Assembly (NCBI GenBank): GCA_002702705.1
Contig: PABH01000069.1
Span: 62,001-126,000, forward strand
Length of the DNA: 64,000 nucleotides
Reading direction: 5' to 3'
From: Anaerolineaceae bacterium
Lineage (GTDB): Bacteria > Chloroflexota > Anaerolineae > Anaerolineales > Anaerolineaceae
Shown: positions 45,426 to 64,000 of the stretch, one piece after another
Numbering within the stretch: the stretch's first letter is position 1
How the letters are laid out: each line of letters opens with the position of its first letter
Position numbers and translations under genes: made by a program
The notes under the pieces: generated by a model
Seen by the model: the letters and a program-made list of their open reading frames with translations, nothing else
Database searches by the model: none
What the model was told of the DNA's origin: nothing

Positions 45426-45534
45426 CATAAAAAGAATATAAATAATTATTGATTTATATTCTTTAAATTCGATTTTGAGAAAAATAAATATTTTTACTGT
45501 AAAATTAAGAATAAAAATTGAAGCTGGGGTTTTT

Positions 45535-48500: not shown

Positions 48501-49587
48501 TGCTGTTAAATCTTTAGAAATTGTCTCGGATTTTTACTTAATTCTCGATGTTTGGTTAAACGAAAACGGTGTTCCCCCAATGCGAGTTTATGATCCCATT
48601 AAGGATCAAACATACAGCATTTATAGTGCACCAACGATAATTGATAACTATAAAGTATCCTGTAATAAAAACTATGTTTACCTGCTTGGGGAGAACCGAT
48701 TAACCGTATTAGATTTTTCACAATTAATGGATTTGGTTACAGATGATATACTGCTACTTGATATTTTCATTTCTCCGAATAATGACTTTATCGTAGGGCA
48801 AACTGAGAATTTTCATAGGTTTGCTTTAATTGATTTGGTGCAGAGAACAGTAAATTTGGTTCCTCATGATCATGTGGTTTCAGGTTTTACGTTTTCATTG
48901 GATGGGAAAACTTTAATTTATCAATGTGACGATAAATTTATTTTTTATGATTTAGAACATAAAATAAAAACAAAATCAATTGATTGTGATGAATCACTTA
49001 GTAAATTAATTGAATTACCGGATGGTAAATATAAAATCGTAGATAACGCTATACATGGTCAAGATCCCGAAATGTTTTCTTGGGATGATGATGGTCTTGA
49101 AATTATCATAAAACCCATAAAGCAGCTAAAAAATGATTATTTTCAGACAATTAATGGCGGTTATCGTTGTGAATATGGAAAAGATCAGATGGTTCGTTTT
49201 TATGATTTAGATTCTGATCATTTATTACACGAGCTGTTTGTTGATAGTTTAGAAGTCTCGGATGTCCAAATAAATTTTGAAGGAACTCATTGCTGTTTTA
49301 AAAGTGTGAACAATTATCTGCAATATTGGGACCTTTCTCAAGATAGAATGATTTTTCAGAGACAATTCGACTTTGATATCCATAATTTATCATTATCAGA
49401 AAATCATACTTGTTCTTTTTTAGATAAATCAGGAATGCTGTATGTTTGGGATTTGATATTTGGAAAACAAATCGGTTTAATTTTCGGCCCATTTACCAAA
49501 GCAAAAATCTCCCCGAACGGCAAATTTTTATTAGCTCTGGATAACTACGGATTCCCTCACTACCTGACCCTGGAAAACATGGACTAA
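45535..49587 (+). CDS. NERD nuclease - STAND ATPase - beta-propeller protein (predicted anti-phage sensor)
   Basis: This 1350-residue protein joins three parts. Residues 1-115 are a NERD (PD-(D/E)xK type) nuclease-like domain with Asp in KPVDLALV and the E-x-K in FVIVELKDC kept. Residues about 215-480 are an NB-ARC/STAND NTPase: P-loop GLGGSGKTQ (about 239), Walker B LLIFDNI (about 316) and LGNHPLALEIAG (GLPL-like, about 409). The region from about 690 to the end is beta-propeller-like, rich in 40-residue strand units (VLIWNLSNNTI, YWDLSQDRM, YVWDLIFG). This architecture fits a sensor that oligomerises on a phage signal and releases nuclease activity. The DNA is strikingly AT-rich. ATG 45535 follows a GGGG stretch; an upstream TTG is less likely. 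Confidence 0.85.
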   Translation: MRKFEVWIGEKFNTTHERVALDSLIQAFESEDFQEEKFFILANFSMNGKPVDLALVKNDAFVIVELKDCEDAFTASENNEWEISNGKYLQTGNRNPFRQVEEYRNATISYLVDNAIEIFKQEKERSDFYHLNGFVVISPDIHPKVKNKIPEYIRWFRLTGLKTLPKYFFQTTSNKLKFTNGDIRRLIKLLNLVPINDALFINQFKVPFQVNNQYIKNEEFFAEVREVLTPQNKPVIITGLGGSGKTQFAVQYAYENRGDFPEGVFWINAANHLIDEFASLAEKLGLKTPKMSTSEAQKIQNAKSFVERVVDSENTLLIFDNINYLTKFFQPMEEFSLSINQFKCKILGTCIIQSLTKNAEFKHLPELTNKQAAEFLLNKMGRMNLIPFTDVQNAHEEIKYVFEICRQLGNHPLALEIAGSYLSYYSDVTLEDYIQLLSINRTNLLQSGEITDATNHSQNIGSTLLSHIEQIQNSEEERLLHCISLLNDSNYLSLDRLCLFYNGKQFQKLNPADPFIQSLNKLVLLNLVKRIDGGNRIWVHPLVMDFLNEFFKEDFIQKKTFFTNFQDFYYKFSNIVDHFQTRSVSDVLKDYSYAIRLKFEEEIDIQIEQFFMSLSIGADNFTSNLEECYLLQQIRNIAFHNQYDKLLDWIELYLEPNNLAYIAENKVLKNRYSALHWKLEFEAEDIKPLADNEKFLTLAENGDLFLGNAHNKEIQPFYQNLPAGDGVSHHKIILSPNEKYLIIIATQQVDQPITESDKVNRWFTYIAKVFNLKNKEYIIEFTEKQDGVLDKFVFLDDETLVYESNHHEVIVFDILQRKIKTVLTGHTEPLVMIETLRREESIISADKNRVLIWNLSNNTIIKEFTFSFNILEIKILQSKNWLFVYGENDIDFTYVEVIDIRNLKSQYKIENAGWIIENNPNHREDAIEIFKQIPKVNPDYISLNFYRNENFPHFTIHENRQELLLYGTNCEIVFDLKTGKKLNIIKDNDAVKSLEIVSDFYLILDVWLNENGVPPMRVYDPIKDQTYSIYSAPTIIDNYKVSCNKNYVYLLGENRLTVLDFSQLMDLVTDDILLLDIFISPNNDFIVGQTENFHRFALIDLVQRTVNLVPHDHVVSGFTFSLDGKTLIYQCDDKFIFYDLEHKIKTKSIDCDESLSKLIELPDGKYKIVDNAIHGQDPEMFSWDDDGLEIIIKPIKQLKNDYFQTINGGYRCEYGKDQMVRFYDLDSDHLLHELFVDSLEVSDVQINFEGTHCCFKSVNNYLQYWDLSQDRMIFQRQFDFDIHNLSLSENHTCSFLDKSGMLYVWDLIFGKQIGLIFGPFTKAKISPNGKFLLALDNYGFPHYLTLENMD

Positions 49588-49731: not shown

Positions 49732-50457
49732 ATGCCATTGTTTCGATATGAATTATTTAAAGAATTAATTAATCATGGAGCAAAATTTGACAATAATGTG
49801 ATCATTGATCCAAGTACAAGTAATACCTTAAAAGAATTTGGGCTCGGATTGGTGACATCTCATATCCAGGAGTTATCGTTAGTTGATGTTATTAGGGACC
49901 CCTTTCCAATATTTGGTTCTGAAGGGGGAATGTGGATTGGTTATAAACTAACGGAATATGGCCGCGGTTTGGCGTATTCAGATGAAAAAATCCGGGAGGC
50001 CGTCAGTCAATTAATGGGTCCAGAAACATCTGAAATTGCAAAATCTGTAATCAAGTTAATCGATGAGTGTAAACAAAAAAATATTAATGAAAACTATCGT
50101 GATGATTTTTTTAGAACCTTGGAAGAAATATCGATTTGTTTTGATCAGGAATGTTATATTGCAACAATTTCTTTATGCGGAAAAATTCTTGAAGTGGGTA
50201 TAAAAGAAATATTAATTCGTAATAATATTGAATTTGATGAAAAAATGATGCTGGGACGACTGATTCGATTGGTCCGTGAACAAATGCCTGCTGAATATCT
50301 GGATCCTTCACTGGAAGATCTCTCCAAAGTTATTAGTCGTAGTAGAAATTCTGCCATACATAGTAATGAGCGAATTCCAATTCCTTCCCGTGACCAAACG
50401 GTTATGGTGATTTACGCTTTACGGGATGTTGTTCGACGGACCTTATTATATTTTTAA
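49732..50457 (+). CDS. HEPN/DUF4145-like protein with N-terminal winged-helix-like region
   Basis: The first 90 residues of this 241-residue protein look like a winged helix (FKELINHGAKF, then GYKLTEYGRGLAYSD). The last 130 are all-helical, resembling DUF4145/HEPN. A helix IATISLCGKILEVGIKEIL is followed by SRSRNSAIHSNE, which contains R-N-x-x-x-H, the HEPN ribonuclease motif. This makes it a candidate RNase effector or a regulator in the defence island. GGAGAATTCGTT precedes the ATG. It lies between the NERD-STAND gene and the BREX-like operon and appears to be a separate unit. Confidence 0.65.
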   Translation: MPLFRYELFKELINHGAKFDNNVIIDPSTSNTLKEFGLGLVTSHIQELSLVDVIRDPFPIFGSEGGMWIGYKLTEYGRGLAYSDEKIREAVSQLMGPETSEIAKSVIKLIDECKQKNINENYRDDFFRTLEEISICFDQECYIATISLCGKILEVGIKEILIRNNIEFDEKMMLGRLIRLVREQMPAEYLDPSLEDLSKVISRSRNSAIHSNERIPIPSRDQTVMVIYALRDVVRRTLLYF

Positions 50458-50534
50458 TCTTTTCCTTCTCTCTTTAGCGTAATATTTAATGCAATAACCT
50501 CCCATATCTCCCAATTTCTTTACCGATAATTTAT

Positions 50535-50563
50535 TTGACATTAATCCAGCGATATGCAATAAT
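50535..50563 (+). promoter_or_regulatory. promoter of the BREX-like operon
   Basis: Consensus TTGACA (50535-50540) and AATAAT (50558-50563) are 17 bases apart, with TGC before the -10 (extended -10). It lies 42 bases before the first gene of the operon. Confidence 0.75.
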
Positions 50564-50605
50564 TAGGACTAACGCCCAATAACTAGTAATCAAGAAGGGG
50601 TAATT

Positions 50606-50830
50606 ATGGATTTCTCATCGGATATTCTGACGGTAGAGGAAGCGGCGATGTATCTCAAAATTCCAATCTCCTCCATTTATAAACTTGCCCAGGAAGGGAA
50701 AATTCCGGCCCAGAAAGTGGGACGTCATTGGCGTTTTCACCGCAATACCTTGGACCATTGGATTGCCGGTGGTTCTCAGTTTGATTTTAAACCCGATGAG
50801 AAATCAAACAAGGGCTTGGATTTTTCATGA
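50606..50830 (+). CDS. excisionase-family HTH DNA-binding protein
   Basis: The 74-residue protein is one winged HTH: LTVEEAAMYLKIPISSIYKL, then GKIPAQKVGRHWRFHRNTLDHWI. This is the standard excisionase-family (HTH_17) pattern with the second-wing WRF. As first gene of the BREX-like operon it is likely an autoregulator. A GGGG-rich ribosome site precedes the ATG, and its stop overlaps the next start (ATGA). Confidence 0.85.
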   Translation: MDFSSDILTVEEAAMYLKIPISSIYKLAQEGKIPAQKVGRHWRFHRNTLDHWIAGGSQFDFKPDEKSNKGLDFS

Positions 50831-51960
50831 GTGAACCCATCTCCAGTAAAGGTCATCGTGACCGTTTACGAAAAAAATTCCTCCTGGATCCTCAGTATTT
50901 GTCACAGGTTGAAAAAATTGAATTGTTATTAACCTATGCCATTCCCCGGGTGGATGTAAAACCGATTGCCCAGGAATTACTAAACCGCTTTGAGGATTTA
51001 TCCGGTATCATTCGCCAGCCCGTGGCGGTGTTAGAGCAGGTGCCAGGGATTGGTGCTTCGGCGGCCATATTTTTGGCATTTATTGGTACTTTATTAAACG
51101 AATTGGAAGGTCAGGAAGAAACGATGGACACCTTACAACCCAATCTTTTTTCCATGCCGGAGGATGACTCTGAGGTGGAGAAAAAATTAACCTTGTTTGC
51201 GAATGACGAAATTTTAAACAGTTTGCGGTTTTTATCATTGGCTTATGAGTTACCCAATAAGGATCGTTTTGAATCCTATCTGGTGGAGCATTTGCCGTAT
51301 AATTCAAAATCGACCCGCATCCGGCGGGCCCGTTATATTCTCAGTCGTTATTTAAATTATCCGGATATAAAAAACCCCTTAACCAAAGTTTTTGCCGAAT
51401 CGGAAAACGATACCGTTAAGAAAAATGTTTTATTTTATGTCATCCAAAAACAGGAAAAAATTGCCGCGTTATTCGCCGAAGAGGTCATTTGGCCGAACCT
51501 GGCCTTGGGCTTTATTTCAAAATCGCTCATTGAGGAATTTGTGAAACGGTATTTCCCGGAAGCCAAAGAAAAAACAATCTATGAGGTTCAGAAGTCATTG
51601 GTTAATACTTATAAATTGTTGGAGATTGGTGATCTGGCTGGTGAAAAACTCTTCTTTTCTCTGCGGAATGGGGATCTGGAAAGTTTTATGTTTGTTTTAA
51701 CGTCCGAATATCCCCAACCGGCGACCGTGCCCTTTGAGAAATTGTTGAATGGGTTTATGCATCGTAACATGCTTTGGCACCGGGATTGGATGCAAAACCA
51801 GCTGTATCGATTACGGTCGTTAAAAATCATTTCAAAAATCAGCGAGATTGATTTTGTAAAACAATTTACCTTGGATGTGGATCAAAAAACCGCATTTGAA
51901 ATTTTTTATTCATCCGCCGAATTTGGCGGTAGGGGTGAGCATGAAATTACAACCAACTGA
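50827..51960 (+). CDS. brxA: BrxA-like protein with fused RadC N-terminal (helix-hairpin-helix) domain
   Basis: Residues about 6-95 are the RadC/UPF0758 N-terminal domain: GHRDRLRKKF, EKIELLLTYAIPRVDVKPIA and the HhH LEQVPGIGASAAI. The JAB catalytic domain of RadC is absent. Residues about 120-375 resemble BrxA/DUF1819, a small winged-helix BREX protein that binds DNA: STRIRRARYILSRYL, VKKNVLFYVIQKQEKIAALF and a helical end. BrxA itself is usually about 200 residues, so this is a longer fused form. I see no such fusion in the BREX types I know. It overlaps the HTH gene by 4 bases and the BrxB-like gene by 20. BrxA identity rests on pattern and position, so it is moderate. Confidence 0.6.
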   Translation: MSEPISSKGHRDRLRKKFLLDPQYLSQVEKIELLLTYAIPRVDVKPIAQELLNRFEDLSGIIRQPVAVLEQVPGIGASAAIFLAFIGTLLNELEGQEETMDTLQPNLFSMPEDDSEVEKKLTLFANDEILNSLRFLSLAYELPNKDRFESYLVEHLPYNSKSTRIRRARYILSRYLNYPDIKNPLTKVFAESENDTVKKNVLFYVIQKQEKIAALFAEEVIWPNLALGFISKSLIEEFVKRYFPEAKEKTIYEVQKSLVNTYKLLEIGDLAGEKLFFSLRNGDLESFMFVLTSEYPQPATVPFEKLLNGFMHRNMLWHRDWMQNQLYRLRSLKIISKISEIDFVKQFTLDVDQKTAFEIFYSSAEFGGRGEHEITTN

Positions 51961-52480
51961 AATTCTGGAGATTTTAGAACAAAATCTATCCGTGAATATT
52001 GGCCGGCATTTATATGCCATTTTGGGGACCTATCAGGCTTTGGACCAATTTGAATTAAGTGCCCTGGCACACGCCAAGTTGGATAACGGTGATCCGTTTC
52101 CCAGCCCGTTTTCCATTAACCGGGTGTTATTGGACAGTTTTGACCCCGACCAGTTACAGGAAGTAATAAAAAAGGAATCCAGGCGTCCTCAAAATACGCA
52201 GGATCGGTTAAATAAAGCCCTGGAAGAATTTTTATACAACAGCCGCGAAAAGACAAATTTTTTAATTCTGAAGCATATCGAATTGTTGTTTGCTTACAGT
52301 CTGGATGTGAGCAAATTACGCTTGTGGGCATCTAACCAGCAGCATATCCTGATTTTACTGCCAGGTGAAATGCGCGGTAGCCAGATTTATTTGTTCCATG
52401 AAGCCGCTGCCGAAGAAGAGCTTAAATTCGATAACCAATTATTCGCAGAAAATAATATTTGGGAGTTAACCAATGCCTAA
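51941..52480 (+). CDS. brxB: BrxB-like protein (DUF1788)
   Basis: The 179-residue protein has HILILLPGEMRGSQIYLFHE near the C-terminus, matching the conserved end of BrxB (LLLPG...G...LFHE), and FAENNIWELTN at the end. BrxB is a small essential BREX component of unknown biochemical role. The ATG at 51941 is chosen because AGGGGTGAG precedes it; a longer frame would start deeper in the previous gene. It overlaps brxC by 8 bases, so brxA, brxB and brxC are translationally coupled. Confidence 0.65.
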   Translation: MKLQPTEILEILEQNLSVNIGRHLYAILGTYQALDQFELSALAHAKLDNGDPFPSPFSINRVLLDSFDPDQLQEVIKKESRRPQNTQDRLNKALEEFLYNSREKTNFLILKHIELLFAYSLDVSKLRLWASNQQHILILLPGEMRGSQIYLFHEAAAEEELKFDNQLFAENNIWELTNA

Positions 52481-55400
52481 TCCAATCATGAACCAATTAT
52501 TCAAACGCCAAACGCTGGACCAGATTCTGACCTATCCAAAAGAGATCACCAGTGTCTACATTGTGGAAAACCATATTTGGAAAGAAAACGGAAAACAGGA
52601 AAGCCGTCAAAAACGATTGGCGGAAACGAAGACGGTGGATGAATTTTTAATCAACCCGGTGCGCTCTTTCTTAAATGACATCTTAAAACAAATGGCCGCT
52701 CCTTACCAACCAGACCGCAAAGACCTTACGATTGGGCAGGGTTATTGGATCCAGGCTGACTTTGGATCGGGGAAATCGCATTTGCTTTCTTTTTTAGGTG
52801 CGATCGGCATTGGGGATGATTCCATTTGGAAAAAAATTAAAGAAAAAGAAGAAAAAGCCGGGATGGGAAAACGGGAAAGTATTTACAGTTTTTATGAAAA
52901 CGGCTTAAAAAGAAAAAATGAAACCACCAAAGGTATTTTGGTGGCTGTTAAAACCCTGGTGGGCAGCGGCAGCGGTGGGGTAGGGCTGGAGAATGCCGAT
53001 AAATCCTTAACTGCACATATTTTGGACGCGGTTTCCGAACAATTTCGGCTGGAAACCGGACGTTCCCTGCCAATTTACCCGACCCAAATTTTAGCCAAGC
53101 GTTTTTTGGAACAGGATTATGCTCGTTATAAAGATGATCTAAAGGCCTATCTGGCGAACCCAAAATATTTTGATGAGGAAGAACAGGAAGATTTAAGTGA
53201 TTTTATTAATGATCTGAGCAGTTCGGATGACCCATCCATCCAGCGGGATTGTGGCCAAAAATTGTGGAATTTTTATAAGGATTATTTAGAAATCACCCCC
53301 AATATCCCGGTGGAATCGGAAGAGGTGCTGCGCAACATGGTGGAACAGATTCTGGCAGAAGGGTACGCAGGTTTGTTCCTGATTTTGGATGAAGTCTCCT
53401 TATATATGAAACAGCGTAGTGATCAGCAGCGGGCGGAGGATGAACAGGCGTTGGTGGTGATGTCGAACCGCCTGACCCGTCACCATAATTTCCCGGTGTG
53501 GACGGTATGTGCCGCCCAGCAGGCCATTGAAAGCAAAAGCGCCGGATCGAAAAATATTATCGCCCGCGAACGATTGGATCTGGTGCCCCTCCTCAAAAAT
53601 GATGATGATTATTATAGTATCGCCTTAGCCCGGGTGCGGGAGATTACCCAGAAAAATGCGATTGACCAATATTATCAGGATTATAAACACGGTTTTACCT
53701 GGGTGGAAACCCACGGTAAGGATCAATTCAGTGAATTTTTTCCCTTTTACCGCAACAGTATGGATGTTTTACGTGCGGTTTCGTTTAACCTGACCACCGT
53801 TCGTTCGGCTTTATATTTTATGCTCGAAACGGTCAAACGCCAATCTAAAAAACAATCCAATGAGTTGATCAGTTTATGGTCTATGTTTGATGAAGTTGTT
53901 TCTTATGAAGAAGACCCCTCCGGTGTAAACCGCAGTATTGCCAATATCCAGACCAAATTCCCGCAAGAGTGGAAGGCCTATGAGCAGGCCAAACGCCAGA
54001 TTTCTTCTGCCACCAAAGGTTATCTAAAAACCTTCCCGGCACGGTGTGAAAAGATCACCAAAACCTTGTTTTTGGAATATATCGCCAAAACCGCAGAAAA
54101 AGGGCTGACGGCCGAAGAGATCATGAATGCCGTGATGGAATGGAAGGACCATGAATCCGGACAGGCCTCCGATAAGAATGATAATTTGGACCATTATGAA
54201 ATCTTGCTGGATAGTTTGCAGCGGGAATTGGTGCAGATTGAAGAGGTGAACGGGTTGTACCGGTTTAACCCGGCGGGTGCTTCCGGTATTTCTCCCAAAG
54301 ATGAATTTGCCAAATTCCGGGCAGAAGCGGAAAACAACGAAAAAGATCGTTTCGATGCCTGGAAATTTTTACTTTCGATGAACGAGTGGCTTTTACGCAC
54401 GCCGACTATGGTGCTTGATCTTTCTGCCGGGGCGGTTTCCCTGTTTTCCGAACTGCCGGTTGATTCAAATAGCAGCCTGAATATCGCCTGGCATAAACGC
54501 GGCATCAAAGGCCGGTTGTTAATGCGCGACCTGAACCATTTGCCACAAGGTGCCCTTTCCCTGCCCAATATCAACAGCGAAGAAACCGGGGAAGATTTTA
54601 TGGTCTTTATCTCTTCTTCCCCAGCTGAAGAAAACACCAAAACCATCATCCAACAGAAAAAAGACCCGCGCCTGTTGGTGTGGAACCCGGATGTGCTGAC
54701 CGGCAGCGAACAATCCCGCCTGATTGATTTTACAGCCTATAACCGTCTGATCGCCGAATACCGCAACAAAGAGGGGGAAGACGCCCAGGTGATTTTGCAG
54801 TGGGTGCGGAAACAGTTGGAAATTGAAATGGGTTCCCTGGTGCGCATGGTGAGTGAGGTTTATGGCCGCGGCAGTTTACGATCCTTACATCACCATGATC
54901 TGAATTTTTCAATGCAGGGCGACCTGAAAACCATCCTGACCCCGGCCATCAGCCAGGTTTTGGACAGTACCTATGACAGCGCCGGGATGATCTTTAACGC
55001 CCAGAGTGTTTTTGACGACACCGCCGTGGTGAACGTCATTAATGGGATCGTTAAACAAGGAGAGTTTGAACGGGGTATAAAAACGGGAAAAGAGGTGGAT
55101 GCCTCCCGTACGTTTGGCCCGACCTTAGGTATTGTGCGACCGGGAGCAGAAAACAAACTTGATCTCAGCCAATGTGCCTATGCCAATGACCTGTTGGAGT
55201 GGATCGGCCAAAAATCAACCAGCCTGGGTACAGCCATTAAAGTGGATACCCTGGTGAAAAACTTTACCGGTATTAATGGACCGAATGGAAAAAACTACGG
55301 TTTAAGCAAACGGTTAATCCAGCTCTATCTGCTGGCATTGGTTAAAGAAGGCAAACTGCGCGCTCAGGTGCAGGGGCGTAATCTGCCGGTGGAAGTGATT

Positions 55401-56774
55401 GATTATGCCAATATTAACGACTTAACCTTTAACGCAGCCTTGCTGGATGGGCTGGAGGCGGTTGAGATTTTAAAACCGCCGGAAGGGTGGGAAATCATCG
55501 CCCCCTTCGCCGCGATTCTATTGGAAAACGAGCAGATCAAAACCGATCAGGAAGAAGCCCAGATCAAAACCAATCTTGTCCAGTTTCTAACCAAACGGCA
55601 TGAACTGGCCACTCTTTTGCCACAGCGTTTTGCCACCTTGGAAACGCTGTTTAAGGATTTGAATCAACCTAATCCCTACATGGAAGTGATCAAACAGTGG
55701 CAGACCTTTTTGACCCAAAATATTCAAACCGACAATACGATTGAAACCATCCGCTATGCCCTGGAACAGGCTTTTGGTTATTTGGTGTACAGTGAGTTGG
55801 AATATAAGGGTGCGGATGTCGATGATTTTGCCACCCGCTTTGCCCAGTTGAAGCAGATGACAACCCTGTTGGAACAATCGGAAACGTTAAGAGCCATTGC
55901 CCGTTACGGGGAAGTGAATCTGCCCGAAGAAAAACAATTTGACCCGATTCGCAAAAAACTAGGGGTGGCGCAAAGCGGCCTGGAGAATTTAAAAAACCTG
56001 GCAGCCCAGCCGGTCCGCCTGGCGGAAGAATGTTTAAACCCTGGCAAAGAAGCAATCGAGGCCTATGCCACCCTCTACCTGACTGTGTTTGACAAGATCG
56101 TTCAGGCCAGCGAAGAAACCCGCCTGGCCATTCAACAGCTCGCGCGGGGAGCGGAATTAACCTTGTTGGAAGCCCTGGAAACCATTCCGCAGTTAAATAC
56201 CGGTCAGCGGCGTGATTTGTTAACACTGTGGCATAAAAGCCAGCAAGACGGCCGTTTATTCCCAGCGGAATTAACCAGGGTTCAGGTGCAGCGAGATCTG
56301 CGCCAGATGCCGCAGCCGGTTAACTGCCCATTAACTTTTTCAAACGCCAAAACCTGGCTGGATAACGCCAAGACCGTTTTGGATACCTGCCGGCTGGGGT
56401 TAAGCACCGCGCTGATCGACAAGGCAGCTTTATTACGCAGCCCCCTGGTCCAGAAACGGTTACAGGAAGCCACACCGGACGAACGGATTGGACAACTGCT
56501 GGTCGCCGAATCAGCGTTGGATTTGATCGGTTTGTTACTCACCTACCAAAAGAGCCGCGATTTTACCGAATGGTTAAGCCAATTGGCGGCTGCTTTCCGC
56601 ACAGTGCAGGTGGTGAAGCTGCGTCTGGCTGATTTTAAACCGCAAAAGAACACCTACCAGGCCCACGAAGTAAAACAACTGGTGAACGAATTTGAAACCT
56701 ACCTGCAAAACCAGCTGCGACAGGCTGGTCAGGCGGATGATATTATTTTGGAAGTGGACACCCCAGCCGAATAG
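52473..56774 (+). CDS. brxC: BrxC/PglY-like large P-loop ATPase
   Basis: This 1433-residue AAA-type ATPase has Walker A ADFGSGKSHLLSF (about 95-107) and Walker B YAGLFLILDEVSLYM (about 300-313). ERLDLVPLLKN lies further on, and a long helical C-terminal half begins with FPARCEKITKTLF. Size and motifs match BrxC/PglY (DUF499/DUF6079-like), the ORC-like core ATPase of BREX systems. It overlaps brxB by 8 bases; the methyltransferase gene follows after 17 bases. A decayed copy of its last 29 codons lies downstream at 59322-59407, between the two methyltransferase genes. No key residue appears to be missing. Confidence 0.82.
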   Translation: MPNPIMNQLFKRQTLDQILTYPKEITSVYIVENHIWKENGKQESRQKRLAETKTVDEFLINPVRSFLNDILKQMAAPYQPDRKDLTIGQGYWIQADFGSGKSHLLSFLGAIGIGDDSIWKKIKEKEEKAGMGKRESIYSFYENGLKRKNETTKGILVAVKTLVGSGSGGVGLENADKSLTAHILDAVSEQFRLETGRSLPIYPTQILAKRFLEQDYARYKDDLKAYLANPKYFDEEEQEDLSDFINDLSSSDDPSIQRDCGQKLWNFYKDYLEITPNIPVESEEVLRNMVEQILAEGYAGLFLILDEVSLYMKQRSDQQRAEDEQALVVMSNRLTRHHNFPVWTVCAAQQAIESKSAGSKNIIARERLDLVPLLKNDDDYYSIALARVREITQKNAIDQYYQDYKHGFTWVETHGKDQFSEFFPFYRNSMDVLRAVSFNLTTVRSALYFMLETVKRQSKKQSNELISLWSMFDEVVSYEEDPSGVNRSIANIQTKFPQEWKAYEQAKRQISSATKGYLKTFPARCEKITKTLFLEYIAKTAEKGLTAEEIMNAVMEWKDHESGQASDKNDNLDHYEILLDSLQRELVQIEEVNGLYRFNPAGASGISPKDEFAKFRAEAENNEKDRFDAWKFLLSMNEWLLRTPTMVLDLSAGAVSLFSELPVDSNSSLNIAWHKRGIKGRLLMRDLNHLPQGALSLPNINSEETGEDFMVFISSSPAEENTKTIIQQKKDPRLLVWNPDVLTGSEQSRLIDFTAYNRLIAEYRNKEGEDAQVILQWVRKQLEIEMGSLVRMVSEVYGRGSLRSLHHHDLNFSMQGDLKTILTPAISQVLDSTYDSAGMIFNAQSVFDDTAVVNVINGIVKQGEFERGIKTGKEVDASRTFGPTLGIVRPGAENKLDLSQCAYANDLLEWIGQKSTSLGTAIKVDTLVKNFTGINGPNGKNYGLSKRLIQLYLLALVKEGKLRAQVQGRNLPVEVIDYANINDLTFNAALLDGLEAVEILKPPEGWEIIAPFAAILLENEQIKTDQEEAQIKTNLVQFLTKRHELATLLPQRFATLETLFKDLNQPNPYMEVIKQWQTFLTQNIQTDNTIETIRYALEQAFGYLVYSELEYKGADVDDFATRFAQLKQMTTLLEQSETLRAIARYGEVNLPEEKQFDPIRKKLGVAQSGLENLKNLAAQPVRLAEECLNPGKEAIEAYATLYLTVFDKIVQASEETRLAIQQLARGAELTLLEALETIPQLNTGQRRDLLTLWHKSQQDGRLFPAELTRVQVQRDLRQMPQPVNCPLTFSNAKTWLDNAKTVLDTCRLGLSTALIDKAALLRSPLVQKRLQEATPDERIGQLLVAESALDLIGLLLTYQKSRDFTEWLSQLAAAFRTVQVVKLRLADFKPQKNTYQAHEVKQLVNEFETYLQNQLRQAGQADDIILEVDTPAE

Positions 56775-56791
56775 GGCATTAAGGATTTAAT

Positions 56792-59308
56792 ATGGCAAAG
56801 CAGAAAACTACCCAACAACCATCGATGTTTAAAAAAGAAATCCCGCAGATGCCGGAAAGGTATTACAGCAGCGGGCCGAACCCTAACCTGGAAAAATTTG
56901 TGGCCGAACACAGCACACCCTACGATCCGGGGACGGATGAGTATGATGTGCCGCCGTTTAATGAAAAGATCGAAATTGGAAATCGACGAAACCCGATTAA
57001 TGATTTGCATACGTATTCCTCAAAAAAGCCATACAAAGCCATAATACAATATATTAAACATTTTACAAAAAAAAAGGATTTGGTATTTGACCCTTTTAGT
57101 GGAAGTGGTGGAACTTCTCTTTCAAGTTTGTTAATAGGGAGGAATGCAATTGCTATTGATATTTCTCCAGCAGCAACTTTTATAACCAAAAATTATTGTT
57201 CATCAATTTATGAAGAAGAAGTTGAAAAAGCATACATAGAACTAATGAATGATATTGGCGAAGAATTGGATTGGCTTTATAGAACCAAATGTGATATTTG
57301 TGATGGTGAAGCATTAATTAAATCAATGGTTTGGTCAACAGTATTTGAATGCCCAAGATGTTTATCCAAAATAAGCCTCGTGGATTGTATTGAGGAAGAA
57401 CAAGTAATAGGAGAAAAACAAAAAAAACAAACAGTGAGTTTGTGCCCTGTTTGTTATGGTAATGAAAATGAAGAAGAAATAGGAATGGGCATAGCAAAAA
57501 AAATAAATGAAATTCCGGTTATCACAAATTATGAATGTTTGTGTGGGTGTAAGCCCAAGATCAAACAACGAACTTATAAAGATGAAAACCCCAAAAAACG
57601 CGAATATTTTGAACGGTATGATGTGGGTAAGATTAGTGAGATTGAAAGAAAGGATATCCCCTATTGGTACCCGCCGCATCGCATGATGAACGTTGAATCC
57701 GATACCGAACCCTGGGGAGATAAATGGCGAGCAGGTACCAGTAATTTCAGGACCGTGTCGGAATTGTTTACTAAAAGAAATCTTTGGGCATTGGCGCTCT
57801 TTAAAAAAAATATTAACGACACCTCATTATTATTTTGTTTATCAGGGGCAATTTTAAACGCAACAAAGATGTATCGATTCCGGAAAAAAGGAGGAGGGCC
57901 TCAAGAAGGGACCTATTATTTACCACCTGTTTATAAAGAAATGTCATTTCGAACACTTTTTGATCAAAAGTATACAAATCTCATAAAGGCAAGCATTGAA
58001 TTAAATAAAATCCAATCGACAAATGTTTGTATTTCTACACAAACTGCAACAAATGTGAAGAATATCCCCAATAATACTATCGACTATATCTTCACAGATC
58101 CCCCGTATGGCGATGCTAGACAATATGGAGAATTGAATTTTATTTGGGAAGCATGGTTAGATTTAGACACTAATTGGCATGATCAAGAAATTATTATCAA
58201 TCGTACAAGAAGTAAGACTGAAGATGATTGGGAGAAATTAATTTATCAAGTCTTTCAGGAAAGCTTCAGGATATTAAAGCCAGGACGTTGGATATCTATT
58301 TGTTACCATGATGCAAGCGAAGGGACTTGGGGATTGTTGCAAGATATGATGACTGAAATTGGCTTTATTCCAGAAAACTTGGACTCTGCTTTATATATTG
58401 AGACAGGACAGAAATCTTTCAATCAATTGATGTCGGACAAAGTGACCAAACGCGACCTTGTTATTAATTTCCGTAAACCACGCCCCGGCGAAACCCGGGC
58501 GGATCTGCGTTTTACCGGGAAGGAGGACGCGCACAGTTTTACCGAAAAGGCACAAGCTATTTTAAAGGAAGCCTTGGACCGTAAGCCGGGCAGCACTGCT
58601 GACCACCTCTATGATGAATTGGTTTCAAGGATGGTACGTAAAGGGGAATTTGAACGTCATGATTTTAGCGGGTTATTAAAAACGGTGGCCGAAGCTGTAC
58701 AAAACCCGGATGTGAACGGCAAACTCATAACACGTTGGTATTTATTAACAACGGGGGATCCGGTCGATGAAGCGGAGAGCAAAAAAGAAGAAGCGGCCGC
58801 CGAACGGCTGTCCCGTTATATGACCAACTATTTAAAGGAAAACCCCCAATTTGAAGGGGTACATTATTCGGACCTGTTTGAACAGTATCTGCCAATTAAG
58901 GACAAACCACGCCGTTTGTTAATCGACTGGCTGCCGGAATATTTTTACCGCTCCAGTGAAGGCACCTGGCGCCCGGCGCAGGATGAAGCGGAAGCGACCC
59001 AAAAACAAAACCTTCGCAGCAGCGGTGCTTTGAGGCGGGTGAGACGATTTACGAACGCCCTGTTAAATTCGGTGCTCCCGGCGGAAAAAGACCGCCCCGA
59101 AAACCCGGCTACCCTGGCGGATTGGATCTACCAATGCCGGCGGGCCGGTTTGTACGAATTGGGCAAACTGCTTTACGAACAGGGCGGGTTAAGTTTTGAG
59201 ACCCTCTCCGAAACTGCCAAACTTGCGGTGCAGGAAGATTATTTGTTGTGCACCCGGCGCGCGCGCCAGGCAGCTTTTGAAAAAGAAAATCAGAAAAAGC
59301 ATGGTTAA
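56792..59308 (+). CDS. BREX-associated DNA adenine methyltransferase, copy A (PglX role)
   Basis: The 838-residue enzyme carries SAM motif I VFDPFSGSGGT (about 97-107) and the catalytic motif IV TDPPYGDARQYGELN (about 434), i.e. alpha-class order. Between them is a region with three to four Cys pairs (CDIC about 168, CPRC about 189, CPVC about 228, CLCGC about 252), likely zinc ribbons. The last 250 residues are helical and common to both copies. DPPY indicates N6-adenine or N4-cytosine methylation; N6-adenine fits BREX, where it marks self DNA. The first 57 codons and last 150 codons are nearly identical to copy B, but the middle differs and is AT-rich in this copy. GGAT lies a few bases before the ATG. 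Confidence 0.85.
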   Translation: MAKQKTTQQPSMFKKEIPQMPERYYSSGPNPNLEKFVAEHSTPYDPGTDEYDVPPFNEKIEIGNRRNPINDLHTYSSKKPYKAIIQYIKHFTKKKDLVFDPFSGSGGTSLSSLLIGRNAIAIDISPAATFITKNYCSSIYEEEVEKAYIELMNDIGEELDWLYRTKCDICDGEALIKSMVWSTVFECPRCLSKISLVDCIEEEQVIGEKQKKQTVSLCPVCYGNENEEEIGMGIAKKINEIPVITNYECLCGCKPKIKQRTYKDENPKKREYFERYDVGKISEIERKDIPYWYPPHRMMNVESDTEPWGDKWRAGTSNFRTVSELFTKRNLWALALFKKNINDTSLLFCLSGAILNATKMYRFRKKGGGPQEGTYYLPPVYKEMSFRTLFDQKYTNLIKASIELNKIQSTNVCISTQTATNVKNIPNNTIDYIFTDPPYGDARQYGELNFIWEAWLDLDTNWHDQEIIINRTRSKTEDDWEKLIYQVFQESFRILKPGRWISICYHDASEGTWGLLQDMMTEIGFIPENLDSALYIETGQKSFNQLMSDKVTKRDLVINFRKPRPGETRADLRFTGKEDAHSFTEKAQAILKEALDRKPGSTADHLYDELVSRMVRKGEFERHDFSGLLKTVAEAVQNPDVNGKLITRWYLLTTGDPVDEAESKKEEAAAERLSRYMTNYLKENPQFEGVHYSDLFEQYLPIKDKPRRLLIDWLPEYFYRSSEGTWRPAQDEAEATQKQNLRSSGALRRVRRFTNALLNSVLPAEKDRPENPATLADWIYQCRRAGLYELGKLLYEQGGLSFETLSETAKLAVQEDYLLCTRRARQAAFEKENQKKHG

Positions 59309-59321
59309 GCCAATTGGGGGA

Positions 59322-59407
59322 GAATTTAAAACTTCCCTGCAAAACAAACAGACCTAGACGGGTCGGTAGATGATATTATTTATGAAGTGGACACCCAAAC
59401 CGAATAG
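59322..59407 (+). pseudogene. remnant of the brxC 3' end
   Basis: These 86 bases align with the last 87 bases of brxC (56688-56774): GAATTT, CTGCAAAAC, GATGATATTATT, GAAGTGGACACCC and CCGAATAG are shared. The frame is broken by stop codons and a one-base loss. The next 17 bases to the ATG are also alike. It proves that the duplicated unit was the end of brxC plus the methyltransferase gene. Confidence 0.9.
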
Positions 59408-59424
59408 TGAATTAAGGACTTAAT

Positions 59425-61968
59425 ATGGCAAAGCAGAAAACTACCCAACAACCATCGATGTTTAAAAAAGAAATCCCGCAGATGCCGGAAGGGTATTACA
59501 GCAGCGGGCCGAACCCTAACCTGGAAAAATTTGTGGCCGAGTACAGCACACCCTACGATCCGGGGACGGATGAGTATGATGTGCCGCCCTTTGATAAACC
59601 AATCACCACCACCAAAGCCACCGCCATTTATAATATGCACACCTACTGGAGCAAAAAACCGCACGATGCCATTCAGGAATATATTAAACACTACACCCAA
59701 CCGGGTGACCTGGTGCTGGACCCCTTCTGCGGCAGCGGCGGCACCGCCCTGGCTGCCCTGATGGAAGGGCGTAAAGCAATCGCCATTGACCTTTCCCCGG
59801 CGGCCACCTTCATCACCAAAAACTACTGCACCCCGGTTGATACCGACCAGCTGCAGGCAGCCTTTAACCAATTGGAAGCAGCGGTAAAAGACGAAATGGA
59901 CTGGTTATATGAAACGCGCTGCGACCGCTGCGACGGCAAGGCCATCACCAATTACACGGTCTATAGTTACGTTTTTGAATGCCCACGTTGCCTGCGGCAG
60001 ATGCCCTTATTTGACTGCCCCGAAGTGCAAATCCCCAAAAAGAGTGGCGGTGGTTTCAAAAAAGCGAATGTCTGTCCCTATTGCCATCAAGAGGGACATG
60101 ATGAAGAGATCAAGGCAGGGAAAACGAAACGTTTTGACCCGATCCCGGTACTGGTCAGTTATGAGTGCCTGGATGGCTGCAAACCCAAAAAAGACCAACG
60201 ATCTTATAATGATAAAAATCCCAAAAAACTGGAATATTTTGATCGTTATGATTTGGGAAAGATCCGAGAAATCGAATCAAAAGAAATTCCTTATTGGTAT
60301 CCCCCGCATCGCATGATGAATGTTGAATCTGATACCGAACCCTGGGGAGATGAGTGGCGGTTAGGCCGTAATTTCCGCACCGTGTCCGAGTTGTTCACGA
60401 AGAGAAATTTATGGGCTTTGGCTTTGTTATTTGATAAAACCAAACAACTTGCCTCAAAAAAGTCTGTTATGTTATTTGAAATTACTTCAAATATATTAAA
60501 ATCATCGAATATGATGGGCCAAAATAATGATGGCATTGGACGTGTAAAAAAAGGCACTTATTATATACCTCAAGTTCAACATATTATAAATGTATGGAAT
60601 TTTATGAAGGATACCCTTTCAGATTTTTTGAAAGGATATCAACAAATTAATAAACTAATCTCCAATGATCTAATTATATCAACCCAAACATCGACTTCAA
60701 TAAATACAAAAAAAAATTCAGTAGATTATATTTTTACCGATCCCCCATATGCTGGAACTGTACAGTATGGTGAATTGAATTTTATTTGGGAATCTTGGCT
60801 GAACTATGATACTAGTTGGATTAATAAGGAAATTATCGTGAATTCAGTACGGAAAAAAACCGAGGAAGATTGGGCTTTTCAATTAAAAAAAGTGTTTACA
60901 GAATGTTATATGGTTTTAAAACCAGGAAGATATATCTCGTTGTGTTTTCATAGTGATGAAAAAATATGGGAATTATTGCAAGATATTATGGCAAACGTTG
61001 GTTTCATTTCTGAAGAAATTGATCAAACATTATTTATTGATACAAGAACAAAAACGGAGAACCAACATACTGGAAATAAAGTCACCAAACGTGACCTGGT
61101 GATCAACTTCCGCAAACCGCGCCCCGGCGAAACGCGGGCCGAGGTGCACATCACCGGGGAAGAAGACCAGACCAGTTTTACCCACAAAGCCCAGCTTATT
61201 TTAAAGGAAGCCCTGGAGCGTGTTCCCGGCAGCACAGCGGATCACCTTTACGATGAATTGGTTTCCCGCATGGTGCGCAAAGGCCAGTTTGAACGCCATA
61301 ATTTTATGAACCTTTTAAGCAGTGTGGCCGAAGCGGTCGAGATTCCCAATCCGCAGGGCGGGGTCACCACCCGCTGGTATCTGCTGGATACGGTGGATGT
61401 GGTGGACGAAGCCGAGAGCAAAAAAGAAGAAGCCGCCGCCGAACGCCTGTCCCGGTTTATGACCACTTATTTAAAGGAAAACCCCCAGTTTGAAGGGGTA
61501 CATTATTCGGACCTGTTTGAACAGTACCTGCCAATTAAGGACAAACCACGCCGTTTGTTATTCGACTGGCTGCCGGAATATTTTTACCGCACCAGTGAAG
61601 GTTTATGGCGCCCGGCGCAGGATGAAGCGGAACTTGCCCAAAAACAAAACCTGCGCAGCAGCGGTGCTTTAAGGCGGGTGAAACGGTTTACGAATGCCCT
61701 CTTAAACTCGGTGCCCCCGGCGGAAAAAGACCGCCCCGAAAACCCGGCTACCCTGGCGGATTGGATCTACCAATGCCGCCGGGCCGGTTTGTACGAATTG
61801 GGCAAACTGCTCTACGAACAGGGTGGGTTAAGTTTTGAGACCCTTTCCGAAACCGCCCAACTGGCGGTGCAGGAAGATTATTTGTTGTGTTCCCGGCGAG
61901 TGCGCCAGGAAGCCTTTGAAAAAGAAAATCAGAAACAGCAGCCTAAAGGACAAAAAGGGTTGTTTTAA
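59425..61968 (+). CDS. BREX-associated DNA adenine methyltransferase, copy B (PglX role)
   Basis: The 847-residue paralogue of copy A has motif I VLDPFCGSGGT (about 97-107), motif IV TDPPYAGTVQYGELN (about 438), the Cys-pair region (CDRCDG, CPRC, CPYC) and the shared helical C-terminus (ADWIYQCRRAGLYELGKLL). The 5' half is more GC-rich than the equivalent part of copy A, while the stretch 60420-61080, around the catalytic motif, is AT-rich like copy A. An island around YPPHRMMNVESDTEPWGD is again nearly identical. This mosaic suggests different target sequences for the two enzymes. Both keep all catalytic motifs, so both are predicted active. Confidence 0.85.
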   Translation: MAKQKTTQQPSMFKKEIPQMPEGYYSSGPNPNLEKFVAEYSTPYDPGTDEYDVPPFDKPITTTKATAIYNMHTYWSKKPHDAIQEYIKHYTQPGDLVLDPFCGSGGTALAALMEGRKAIAIDLSPAATFITKNYCTPVDTDQLQAAFNQLEAAVKDEMDWLYETRCDRCDGKAITNYTVYSYVFECPRCLRQMPLFDCPEVQIPKKSGGGFKKANVCPYCHQEGHDEEIKAGKTKRFDPIPVLVSYECLDGCKPKKDQRSYNDKNPKKLEYFDRYDLGKIREIESKEIPYWYPPHRMMNVESDTEPWGDEWRLGRNFRTVSELFTKRNLWALALLFDKTKQLASKKSVMLFEITSNILKSSNMMGQNNDGIGRVKKGTYYIPQVQHIINVWNFMKDTLSDFLKGYQQINKLISNDLIISTQTSTSINTKKNSVDYIFTDPPYAGTVQYGELNFIWESWLNYDTSWINKEIIVNSVRKKTEEDWAFQLKKVFTECYMVLKPGRYISLCFHSDEKIWELLQDIMANVGFISEEIDQTLFIDTRTKTENQHTGNKVTKRDLVINFRKPRPGETRAEVHITGEEDQTSFTHKAQLILKEALERVPGSTADHLYDELVSRMVRKGQFERHNFMNLLSSVAEAVEIPNPQGGVTTRWYLLDTVDVVDEAESKKEEAAAERLSRFMTTYLKENPQFEGVHYSDLFEQYLPIKDKPRRLLFDWLPEYFYRTSEGLWRPAQDEAELAQKQNLRSSGALRRVKRFTNALLNSVPPAEKDRPENPATLADWIYQCRRAGLYELGKLLYEQGGLSFETLSETAQLAVQEDYLLCSRRVRQEAFEKENQKQQPKGQKGLF

Positions 61969-61979
61969 GGGGATAAACC

Positions 61980-64000
61980 ATGATTAATGATTGGATTTTA
62001 GACAAACTGAACCCGCTCCAAAATGAAACCACCGTCATCCTCAAAGATCCGCAGCGCATTATCCGCCCGGGTGATTATATCCTCGACGAATGGTCGCTGC
62101 AGCATGGGTTCACCACCCTGATGTGCACCGGTAACCTGGCTTTGCGCAGCTGGTACGAGAACCTGCGCGGGGACCCGGACATCAAATTGCTGCTGGTAGA
62201 CCGCAGCCGGGTGAACGCCAAACGACCGCGTTTGTTTTACCCCGACCTGCAGGCCCAGGCGACACCCCAGACCCAATTGACGATTTCCCTGCGTGATTTT
62301 TTAATCGAACAGACCGGTGATGAAAACTGGCCGTTGTTAATCAACCATAACCGCCAAATCTCGGACTTAATGCTGGCCCATTTATCGTCTATCTTAAAAA
62401 CGCACCAGGACTTACGGGTTGTTTCCCCCAGCCGTTTCAGCGACCAGGATTTTTATAAGATCCTGTTTGGGGCGATGTTGAAGATCAATCCCTTTGAAAA
62501 ACTTTCCCCGGCAAAGGTGCGCAAACTGTGCATCGAACAATCGCGGGCCTTTAAAGAACTGGAAACAATCCTGCCGGCTGATGTCATGGAAACCTTCAGC
62601 AGCCTGATCCAACAAACGGAACCCCCCTTTAATTTGCTGCTGGGTGGGGATGCGGTGCAGATTATGCGTGCTTTTAACCTGGCGGCCATCTTACACCAGC
62701 ACGGCCTGGATTACAGCCTGATCATCGGCAATCTGGACCCCGTTTTGATGCCCTATCGCGAAATTGACCCGGCCTTCTTAAACCTGGCGATGCAGGATCA
62801 GATTGGTGCCGATCCGGATCAGGTTTTGACCGATGTGAAGGATCTCGAAGATCATCTACAACAATCCCCCAAGGCAATTGAAGACCTGTTTAAAAAACAC
62901 CTGCAGGTGGAGGATCTGGAGGCGGCTTTTTTGGTTTTAAAGCGGGAAAAACTTTCCGAAATGGTGCGCCGCACCGCCCTCTATAACCTCTATATCGAAC
63001 TTTTCCGCCAGGATCCAAACCTGAAATTCCACAAAAACGTGTTAAAGATTTTAAAAACCCAGGAAAACGATAATACTTTTTTGGTTTTACGACGTCCCAG
63101 CCCGGTTTGGGAAACCTTATTGGAACTGTACCAACACACCATTGATTATTTTTCCGTCCTGGCAAAATTAGGGAAAACCGCCATGGGGATAAAACATACC
63201 CCAGCAGCGCAGCTGGATGTTTTGGATTTTGTTGGTTTTTGGAATAAGGATCAGCTCAACCGGCTTGAATATTACGCTGCCAAAGTAAACCGCCAGATGC
63301 GGGTGGGGGATATCCATCCATTAAAAAAAGAATGTTTCTGGGAAAGCCTGAAAACCCGCTGGGAGGTTGCTCACCAGTACTTAAAAAAATTAAATACGAC
63401 CGGTGATCAAATCCTGGCCCTGCTGGATGCGCGTTTTCAGGATGTTTATCATAAACACTACACGGATTGGATCAAAGATTCAGAAAGCCCGCTTATTTTT
63501 ACGCACCAGTTTTTGGAACGTATTTTCCGTAAATATTGGGACCCCAAGGGTAACCAAAAAGCCTATGTTTTGGTGTTTGATGGCATGCGTACGGATGCCT
63601 GGGATCTCTTCCTGAAACCGGTCTTTGAAACCCGTTTTCAGGTGGTTCAGGAATATCCCGCCTCGGCTATTTTACCGACCGAAACCAATCTGAGCCGCAA
63701 AGCGATCAGCGCGGGTTGTCTGCCGGAAAGTTTTCCGAAATCGACCCGCGAGTCGGCCTTACTGGCAGCCTGGTTGGAAAAAACATTAGGGTATAAGGTT
63801 AAGTTTAACGCCATCAAAGATGACGATACCGAAAACTCGGGTATCACGGTTTGGTACCAATCCGAAAAACTGGATTATATTGTGTTTAACTTCAGTGATG
63901 AAAACCTGCACCATAATAACCAGGAGTTATCGTTAATTTACGAAAGCACGGTTGACCGTATCATTCGGGAAGATGTGCAGGCGGTATTAAGAGACATCCC
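61980..64000 (+). CDS. pglZ: PglZ-family BREX protein (alkaline-phosphatase superfamily), truncated by window end
   Basis: The frame is open from ATG 61980 to the last base (673 codons seen), and TAAGGGGATAAACC supplies the ribosome site 11 bases after the copy B stop. An N-terminal part of about 500 residues is followed by the PglZ core: YVLVFDGMRTDAWDLF (about 525-540, metal-binding Asp) and SAILPTETNLSRKAISAG (about 560, metal-binding Thr). PglZ is the hallmark protein of BREX/Pgl defence, a phosphatase- or nuclease-like enzyme needed for both methylation and exclusion. The C-terminal part lies outside the window, as would any brxL, brxH or further genes. Confidence 0.9.
   Translation, partial: MINDWILDKLNPLQNETTVILKDPQRIIRPGDYILDEWSLQHGFTTLMCTGNLALRSWYENLRGDPDIKLLLVDRSRVNAKRPRLFYPDLQAQATPQTQLTISLRDFLIEQTGDENWPLLINHNRQISDLMLAHLSSILKTHQDLRVVSPSRFSDQDFYKILFGAMLKINPFEKLSPAKVRKLCIEQSRAFKELETILPADVMETFSSLIQQTEPPFNLLLGGDAVQIMRAFNLAAILHQHGLDYSLIIGNLDPVLMPYREIDPAFLNLAMQDQIGADPDQVLTDVKDLEDHLQQSPKAIEDLFKKHLQVEDLEAAFLVLKREKLSEMVRRTALYNLYIELFRQDPNLKFHKNVLKILKTQENDNTFLVLRRPSPVWETLLELYQHTIDYFSVLAKLGKTAMGIKHTPAAQLDVLDFVGFWNKDQLNRLEYYAAKVNRQMRVGDIHPLKKECFWESLKTRWEVAHQYLKKLNTTGDQILALLDARFQDVYHKHYTDWIKDSESPLIFTHQFLERIFRKYWDPKGNQKAYVLVFDGMRTDAWDLFLKPVFETRFQVVQEYPASAILPTETNLSRKAISAGCLPESFPKSTRESALLAAWLEKTLGYKVKFNAIKDDDTENSGITVWYQSEKLDYIVFNFSDENLHHNNQELSLIYESTVDRIIREDVQAVLRDI

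Follow-up and report, generated by a model that had tools for sequence, protein, structure and literature searches.

Type I restriction-modification systems join one machine to interchangeable target-recognition parts, which are swapped by recombination in conserved flanks. For BREX, the TRD of the methyltransferase PglX has been compared with type I specificity subunits (PMC11341690), and pglX is described, in the passages that deal with it, as the variable gene of the system by phase variation, in one case via a homopolymer tract (PMC6326788, PMC11341690). Excerpts on type-1 BREX report that the methyltransferase is needed for marking and restriction, and that a complex with further Brx proteins is a proposed requirement for methylation (PMC12707154). 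In the sections we draw on for the type-1 cassette of Lacticaseibacillus paracasei (L. casei) Zhang, pglX is the sole methyltransferase gene on which methylation depends, and a regulatory role is suggested for a second one (PMC10164179). In type 3, as outlined in parts of a recent BREX survey, the TRD of PglX is an insert in its methyltransferase part and its C terminus comprises three HTH-like domains, the BrxHII helicase occurs in 77% of taxa, and BrxL is entirely absent (PMC12839542).

The anti-phage BREX locus described here resembles type-3 systems with BrxXI/PglXI, as portrayed in those parts of the survey, in its inserted TRD, conserved cysteines, BrxA-like and BrxF-like genes, and PglZ. 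It differs from them in having two PglXI with different cores, BrxL, and no BrxHII-like match, and its BrxC, BrxA, and BrxF genes match curated models weakly (PMC12839542). The cassette of L. paracasei Zhang, which likewise contains two methyltransferase genes, is the closest precedent that we found for two methyltransferases in one BREX cassette; unlike the pair portrayed in those sections, both genes here are full-length PglXI with common ends (PMC10164179). Compared with the phase-variable pglX of the cited passages (PMC6326788, PMC11341690), this locus holds two intact alternatives together. In searches of open-licence full text, we recognised no report of paired type-3 PglX with swapped cores.

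Composition of the locus

The window, by which we mean the whole 64,000-nucleotide stretch analysed, comes from contig G000:C71 of a draft genome (5.9 Mb, 74 contigs). The gene order of the locus is HTH, BrxA-like, BrxF-like, BrxC-like, PglXI copy A, PglXI copy B, PglZ, UvrD-type helicase, and BrxL:

50606-50830, + strand: HTH gene (HTH_17 4.5e-16)
50827-51960, + strand: BrxA-like gene (BrxA 20.7 bits, below the curated cut-off of 23)
51875-52480, + strand: BrxF-like gene (BrxF 21.9 bits, below the curated cut-off of 50)
52473-56774, + strand: BrxC/PglY-like ATPase, 1433 aa, intact
56792-59308, + strand: pglXI copy A, 838 aa (PADLOC PglXI 1.7e-105)
59425-61968, + strand: pglXI copy B, 847 aa (PADLOC PglXI 1.3e-111)
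61980-64000, + strand, continuing beyond the window (L032:2981-5779): pglZ, 932 aa (Pfam PglZ 34.7 bits, cut-off 25)
L032:5814-8684: UvrD-type helicase, 956 aa, between pglZ and brxL (UvrD-helicase 116 bits)
L032:8697-10742: brxL (BrxL 2.7e-171; BrxL_ATPase 371 bits)

The BrxC-like ATPase scores 3.8e-11 against NCBIfam BREX_BrxC (42 bits versus a cut-off of 400) and 6.2e-5 against PADLOC. Its homologue in Levilinea saccharolytica (record L036, locus stretch L034) occupies the corresponding position and is 49% identical to it. The UvrD-type helicase has no match in the window-type relatives searched. In the rest of the source genome, the sole further PglXI match is short and weak (61 residues, 9.5e-6); the closest single PglX belongs to the same-family genome G027.

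Type-3 traits are PglXI in both copies, PglZ, and a cysteine-bearing TRD insert between motif I and DPPY. BrxL is a type-1 trait, and its absence, a type-3 trait, is not found here. Neither copy has the C-terminal TRD of type-1 PglX: the best PADLOC model is PglXI, and motif I lies ~340 residues before DPPY. A BrxHI/BrxHII-like helicase, sought with one query from G005 (tblastn, 1e-5), had no match in the window, L032, L033, L034, L036-L039, L119, or L120. Because BrxL is present and such a helicase is not matched, the locus is called type-3-like and is not filed as type 3. Besides this locus (L032), BrxL occurs in the PglXI loci L034, L037, L038, L039, L119, and L120, with BrxF-like genes where the stretch reaches.

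The gene at 45475-49587, upstream of the BREX locus, may be a defence gene of STAND type: its 1370-aa product has NERD, NB-ARC-like, and WD40-like matches. In Levilinea, brxC and pglX are separated by a 423-aa gene that matches no family (L034:9106-10377), and pglX and pglZ by a HEC-01A-like AAA ATPase (3e-158; L034:13067-14170).

Duplication scar and divergence of the two copies

The repeats that link the two pglXI genes and the remnant between them are as follows:

56736-56965 and 59369-59598, + strand: 5' direct repeat, 230 nt, 94%; brxC tail and pglX start
57512-57729 (A) and 60142-60359 (B), + strand: middle island, 218 nt, 78% nt
58439-58738 and 61078-61377: further direct repeat, 300 nt, 73%
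58775-59299 (A) and 61414-61938 (B), + strand: 3' direct repeat, starting at codon 664; 82-97% nt from codon 670
59301-59407, + strand: decayed brxC 3' end, internally deleted; provides the stop codon of copy A

Positions 59322-59407 match the final 87 nt of brxC (56688-56774) up to its stop, and a local match that continues from this remnant into the pglX start covers 161 of 190 positions (85%). An exact 17-nt piece at 59301-59317 corresponds to brxC 56570-56586, and ~100 nt of brxC is absent before 59322. Since copy A stops inside the remnant, it lacks the final residues of copy B; the position of the remnant after copy A indicates that the duplicated unit was ~2.7 kb and comprised the brxC tail and pglX. 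The direct repeats contain exact blocks of up to 71 nt. No inverted pair of at least 25 nt (seed 12) was found in 50000-64000, where the repeats are direct, and an invertible specificity switch was rejected on this ground.

In a codon alignment read in 25-codon windows, copies A and B are 97-99% identical in nucleotides over codons 1-50, 37-65% over codons 51-250 and 326-545 (barring one 75% window around DPPY), 76-83% in an island at codons 251-325, 63-75% over codons 545-670, and 82-97% from codon 670 onward. In 8-codon windows, a step at codon 56 (A 56957 / B 59590) lowers identity from 0.96 to 0.50, and a second step at codon 664 (A 58775 / B 61414) restores 0.96. The interiors are homologous, though far diverged, since core identity is 0.58 as observed versus 0.27 when codons are shuffled. 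The dS is 0.064 over codons 1-56 (just 2 synonymous differences) and 0.232 over codons 671-838, and it is above 1.4 or saturated in every segment of codons 57-670. With the ends as marker of the duplication, the interior is thus too diverged to be of duplication age. With a dS of 1.46, the island predates the ends and is therefore not a recent crossover. G+C over codons 57-250 is 0.30-0.32 in A and 0.48-0.55 in B; over codons 326-475 it is low in both copies (0.27-0.35) and in five relatives (0.33-0.43).

A preliminary description of this DNA had two methyltransferase genes here, and their coordinates and overall pattern are confirmed, both being intact PglXI. The decayed brxC end that it placed before copy B is real. 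Its tandem duplication carrying the brxC tail, with later replacement of the interior of one copy, is supported by the scar, the identity steps, the dS values, and the comparison with relatives and site test given below. Sliding-window alignment of both genes, with its sharp steps at codons 56 and 664, agrees with the strong divergence claimed outside the ends and, together with the dS segments, excludes uniform divergence along the whole gene. The ends are near-identical as stated, the 3' stretch being ~520 bp long rather than 450. The middle island, also called near-identical, is not (78% nt) and is old. Base composition has diverged as stated over codons 57-250, but not over codons 326-475, which are A+T-rich in both copies.

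The exchanged core

Comparison with five relatives (Levilinea, L037, L038, L039, and partial L040) distinguishes two tracts:

56957-58774, + strand: foreign tract in copy A, which spans the catalytic core with the TRD insert and reaches into the C-terminal region
59593-60174, + strand: family-typical part of the copy B core, codons 57-250, with a conservation peak in 57-130

Over codons 57-130, copy B is 89-95% identical to the five relatives, and copy A is 55-61% identical to them and to B. Farther on, B shares 69-74% with the relatives in codons 131-200 and 36-44% in codons 201-250. Within codons 57-250, 56 sites are common to B and Levilinea without A, and 7 to B and A without Levilinea; the ends have 6 and 76 such sites, respectively (Fisher 3e-25 versus 57-250, sites treated as independent). 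As B is family-typical and A deviant in the core, the foreign core sits in copy A. Judged by these sequence comparisons, copy A carries a foreign core between ends that match those of copy B.

The TRD insert is 0.30-0.33 identical between A and B (codons 201-250 and 326-430). Codons 326-430 form the most variable part, with the listed pairs among A, B, and the five relatives at 24-41%; identity to Levilinea is 0.41 for A and 0.32 for B. Given this low pairwise identity, A and B each own a separate TRD part. With the catalytic motifs kept, the low identity of the insert suggests that the two copies differ in specificity. The specificity region had been described as replaced: an interior exchange did take place, but it took in the whole methyltransferase core, with motif I, the TRD insert, DPPY, and beyond. 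In this respect the window departs from type I restriction-modification: its exchange includes the catalytic methyltransferase core, and the common part is the C-terminal region.

The donor of the A core is absent from all loci fetched, where the best identity is ~0.63 in codons 57-135. A phage origin of copy A was rejected: tblastn at 1e-10 matched none of 50,697 phage records, and copy A as single query in IMG/VR gave no confirmed relative. Copy B has 1e-20 matches in 11 plasmid records; the best identity is 32%, and no match covers >80% of its length.

Integrity and predicted structure

Copy A has motif I (DPFSGSGGT) at codon 100 and DPPY at codon 436; copy B has DPFCGSGGT at codon 99 and DPPY at codon 439. 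Of the columns with conservation of at least 97% among the other 36 proteins, 51 of 56 are retained in A and 53 of 55 in B. The substitutions P93K and G94K, beside motif I, are the main cause for doubt that copy A would function. Four cysteines (C186, C189, C217, and C220 in B numbering) are invariant in 27 proteins. Between the copies, dN/dS over codons 671-838 is 0.19, a ratio that does not distinguish which copy is responsible.

AlphaFold single-chain models give A and B the same order of main elements, with a mean pLDDT of 79.8 for A and 79.9 for B. When model B was compared with the PDB by Foldseek, the TM to the query was at most 0.12 among the 50 matches listed, so the TRD could not be positioned on DNA. 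A profile search of PDB sequences returned 14 with a value of 0.01 or better; most are DNA methylases, CcrM among them, and the alignments cover short stretches, chiefly motif I.

Conservation of the C-terminal region and the core across PglXI

The C-terminal region is generally less conserved than the motif-I region among 28 PglXI proteins (378 pairs), with a mean C-terminal minus motif-I difference of -0.29 for the 375 pairs outside one locus. It is the more conserved part in 10 of the 378 pairs, and the top three of these are the three same-locus pairs. The other seven comprise six that involve L012 or L027 and, last, A with Levilinea (0.61 and 0.62). Extending the set to 37 proteins (666 pairs, one protein counted twice) gave 14 pairs with a C-terminal excess, in which the same-locus pairs take ranks 1, 3, and 4, with the foreign-core copy of G005 versus a G576 gene in second place. 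L109 was dropped as an independent relative, its PglX equalling that of L038 in every segment compared; in the 37-protein set, the trees and dS, and the site tests it is counted separately.

In the C-terminal tree, A and B are sisters (support 1.0), as are V1 and V2 (0.93), the two copies of the IMG/VR contig G488 described below. In the core tree, V2 falls outside the clade of A, B, V1, and relatives (1.0), and A is not beside B, its position having a low support of 0.12.

Six window-type loci have complete brxC and pglZ (window, Levilinea L034, L038, L039, L120, and G488). Across them, identity of the C-terminal region correlates with that of BrxC and PglZ with rho 0.90-0.92 for native copies and 0.92-0.94 for second copies, values equalled by 1-2 of 720 label permutations, true order included. 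Core identity versus BrxC and PglZ gives rho 0.00-0.14 for native and 0.28-0.35 for second copies, with 52-297 of 720 permutations as good. The six loci are not independent, four of them are identical in the native and second-copy sets, and L120, itself core-exchanged, contributes to the weak correlation of the core. From these comparisons, the C-terminal region goes with the locus and tracks BrxC and PglZ, and the core moves between loci. Docking via the C-terminal region would yield such a correlation; common descent of linked genes would also raise it, yet would do likewise for the core.

Paired and exchanged cores in other loci

The IMG/VR contig G488 (32.9 kb; L072, L080, and L119) encodes BrxA, BrxF, V1, a 311-aa gene, BrxC, PglZ, V2, and the start of BrxL. 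V1 and V2 are 94-100% identical over residues 601-830 and 31-68% in segments of residues 57-550; their DNA matches at 84.5% over 1055 nt. The V2 core is 57-82% identical to the sole full-length PglX of locus L120. Site counts for V2 are 159 with L120 versus 25 with V1 in the core, and 6 versus 102 in the C-terminal region (3e-46). The start of V2 (residues 20-56) is not common with V1 (0.41-0.43), so that the repeated 5' end of the window pair is not general: the G488 pair has just the C-terminal third in common. V2 has the appearance of a chimera joined near residue 550, the donor lineage of which is visible.

In G005, a genome of the same genus, two adjacent PglXI genes lie downstream of a BrxC of different kind. 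Their motif-I regions are 0.47 (first copy, with a divergent core) and 0.77 (second copy) identical to that of the G576 gene, and the C-terminal regions of all three genes are about equally alike (0.72-0.81). A site test for within-locus sharing of the C-terminal region was not significant in G005 (p 0.28 and 0.58). As this region is as close to the G576 gene as to the neighbour, G005 was rejected as proof of such sharing; it is a core exchange of older date and a weaker case.

Three genes found alone also bear exchanged cores, and one of them adjoins a fossil of the native gene. In G018, brxC (PADLOC BrxC, 1421 bits) is followed by a native pglX fossil whose body is gone. Of the native pglX, the fossil retains the last 66 bp (85%) and the upstream region with the first codons, which aligns to L014 at 76% across 218 columns (E 9e-44). 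One 344-aa gene past it lies the PglX L012, in which a foreign core is joined to a C-terminal region of native type. The 16.6 kb read around L012 and the 19.8 kb around L027 contain no second PglX. The L120 machine is close to that of L038 (BrxC 87%, PglZ 82%), and the PglX proteins of the two loci are 0.70-0.88 identical in the C-terminal region and 0.29-0.65 in core segments. The preliminary description held that the direct repeats could recombine into single chimeric methyltransferases; none was seen in the source species, but lone exchanged-core genes with a native-type C-terminal region do occur in relatives, and this is the state that such a collapse would leave.

Small genes directly follow pglX at L072:10342-11277 (311 aa) and L120:9525-10331 (268 aa), and their ends resemble the last HTH-like part of the PglX C-terminal region (40-51%, ~75-90 residues). 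Could these be stand-alone adaptor pieces? Just upstream of the G018 BREX genes, L088:19-2300 has >30 direct repeats at ~74 nt spacing, a CRISPR-like array.

Interpretation and alternatives

We favour, with a probability of about 0.6, the reading that a BREX locus of the BrxF/PglXI kind, with BrxL, carries two methyltransferase subunits for one machinery, which would dock by their C-terminal regions and serve two targets. A unit of ~2.7 kb (brxC tail and pglX) was duplicated in tandem, and the catalytic core of copy A, with its TRD, is a different one between matching ends. The C-terminal region would dock PglX to BrxC/PglZ, the core would read and methylate the target, and A and B would load alternately onto one machine, marking and policing two different sites. 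It is from the common C-terminal region, the domain layout given for type 3, and the complex proposed for type 1, as set out in parts of the two sources (PMC12839542, PMC12707154), that we infer this two-target machine. One locus would then give rise to two methylation motifs. A would be lost if the 5' repeats recombined, and the B core if the 3' repeats did, so either single-specificity state should be one event away.

A more general proposal, to which we give even odds, is that PglXI combines a C-terminal adaptor, fixed to its own BrxC/PglZ, with a freely traded methyltransferase-plus-TRD cartridge. Foreign cartridges would be grafted onto a copy of the resident adaptor and two held at once (window, G488), the native one perhaps being dropped later, as G018 suggests; one machine could thereby serve two sites and change its target without a gap in immunity.

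The adjacency of A and B, both intact, and the paired PglX-related system in Pseudarthrobacter plasmids, 37% identical nearly full length, would also fit two parts of one enzyme, either a heterodimer or, on the pattern of type IIS pairs, one part for each strand of one asymmetric site. This is unlikely given that the G488 genes stand apart, flanking brxC and pglZ, that the foreign cores A and V2 do not form their own clade in the core tree (although support for A is low, 0.12), and that four of six window-type loci have a single full-length PglX. Copy A might instead be a functionless relic, a recombinant en route to loss beside a working copy B, for its C terminus is shortened and fused to a brxC fragment, and P93 and G94 beside motif I are changed. 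Yet its 838 codons are still open despite its age, the motifs are kept, and its predicted fold is as confident as that of B; the dN/dS of 0.19 in codons 671-838 also points away from a relic, with the caveat that it specifies neither copy. We judge loss of function in A improbable.

That the ends are alike through gene conversion where the copies still match, the core having diverged or been exchanged by chance with no docking role for the C-terminal region, is an unlikely explanation. The exact repeat blocks of up to 71 nt suffice for recombination, and in G005 the C-terminal regions of the two neighbours resemble each other no more than they resemble that of another genome; the G488 copies, however, are not adjacent and still have the C-terminal third alone in common, and the C-terminal region tracks BrxC/PglZ in loci that yielded no second copy. 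A draft assembly in 74 contigs could in principle have joined two strain alleles of one pglX, but misjoined intact alleles would not produce a brxC tail that is decayed and internally deleted, nor the shortened terminus of A, and similar pairs occur in two other assemblies, making an assembly artefact very improbable.

If A and B do serve one machinery, paired loci look like an intermediate in BREX target change, with the old and the new methyltransferase on one machine. This suggests that one BREX machine can take interchangeable target readers, and the paired loci suggest a natural rule for adding a second target to a BREX system. The same reading predicts that PglX meets the rest of BREX via residues ~560-830. 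These loci also bring out a BrxF/PglXI system with BrxL, a combination called absent in the type-3 parts of a recent BREX survey (PMC12839542).

Occurrence of paired genes

Two of the six window-type loci have two full-length PglX genes and four have one. With up to five candidates scored per genome, PglXI is matched at 1e-30 or better in 21 of the 147 genomes of the family, and an adjacent full-length pair is present in two of these 21 (G000 and G005). G571 has two PglXI on separate contigs (L104 and L111) that are 92-97% alike and may be strain variants or a pair broken at a repeat. A sample of the phylum gave PglXI matches at 1e-40 in 21 of 400 genomes (two candidates scored per genome), with an adjacent pair in G000 only and two matches on separate contigs in G357 and G468. 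A survey in another phylum around G491 found a match in 1 of 14 genomes, G491 itself. In IMG/VR, one of 30 loci contigs, G488, has two full-length genes. A paired arrangement of a different kind is found on a Pseudarthrobacter plasmid (L070:14980-18593), in which two adjacent methyltransferases, 37% identical nearly full length, are followed by AAA ATPase genes.
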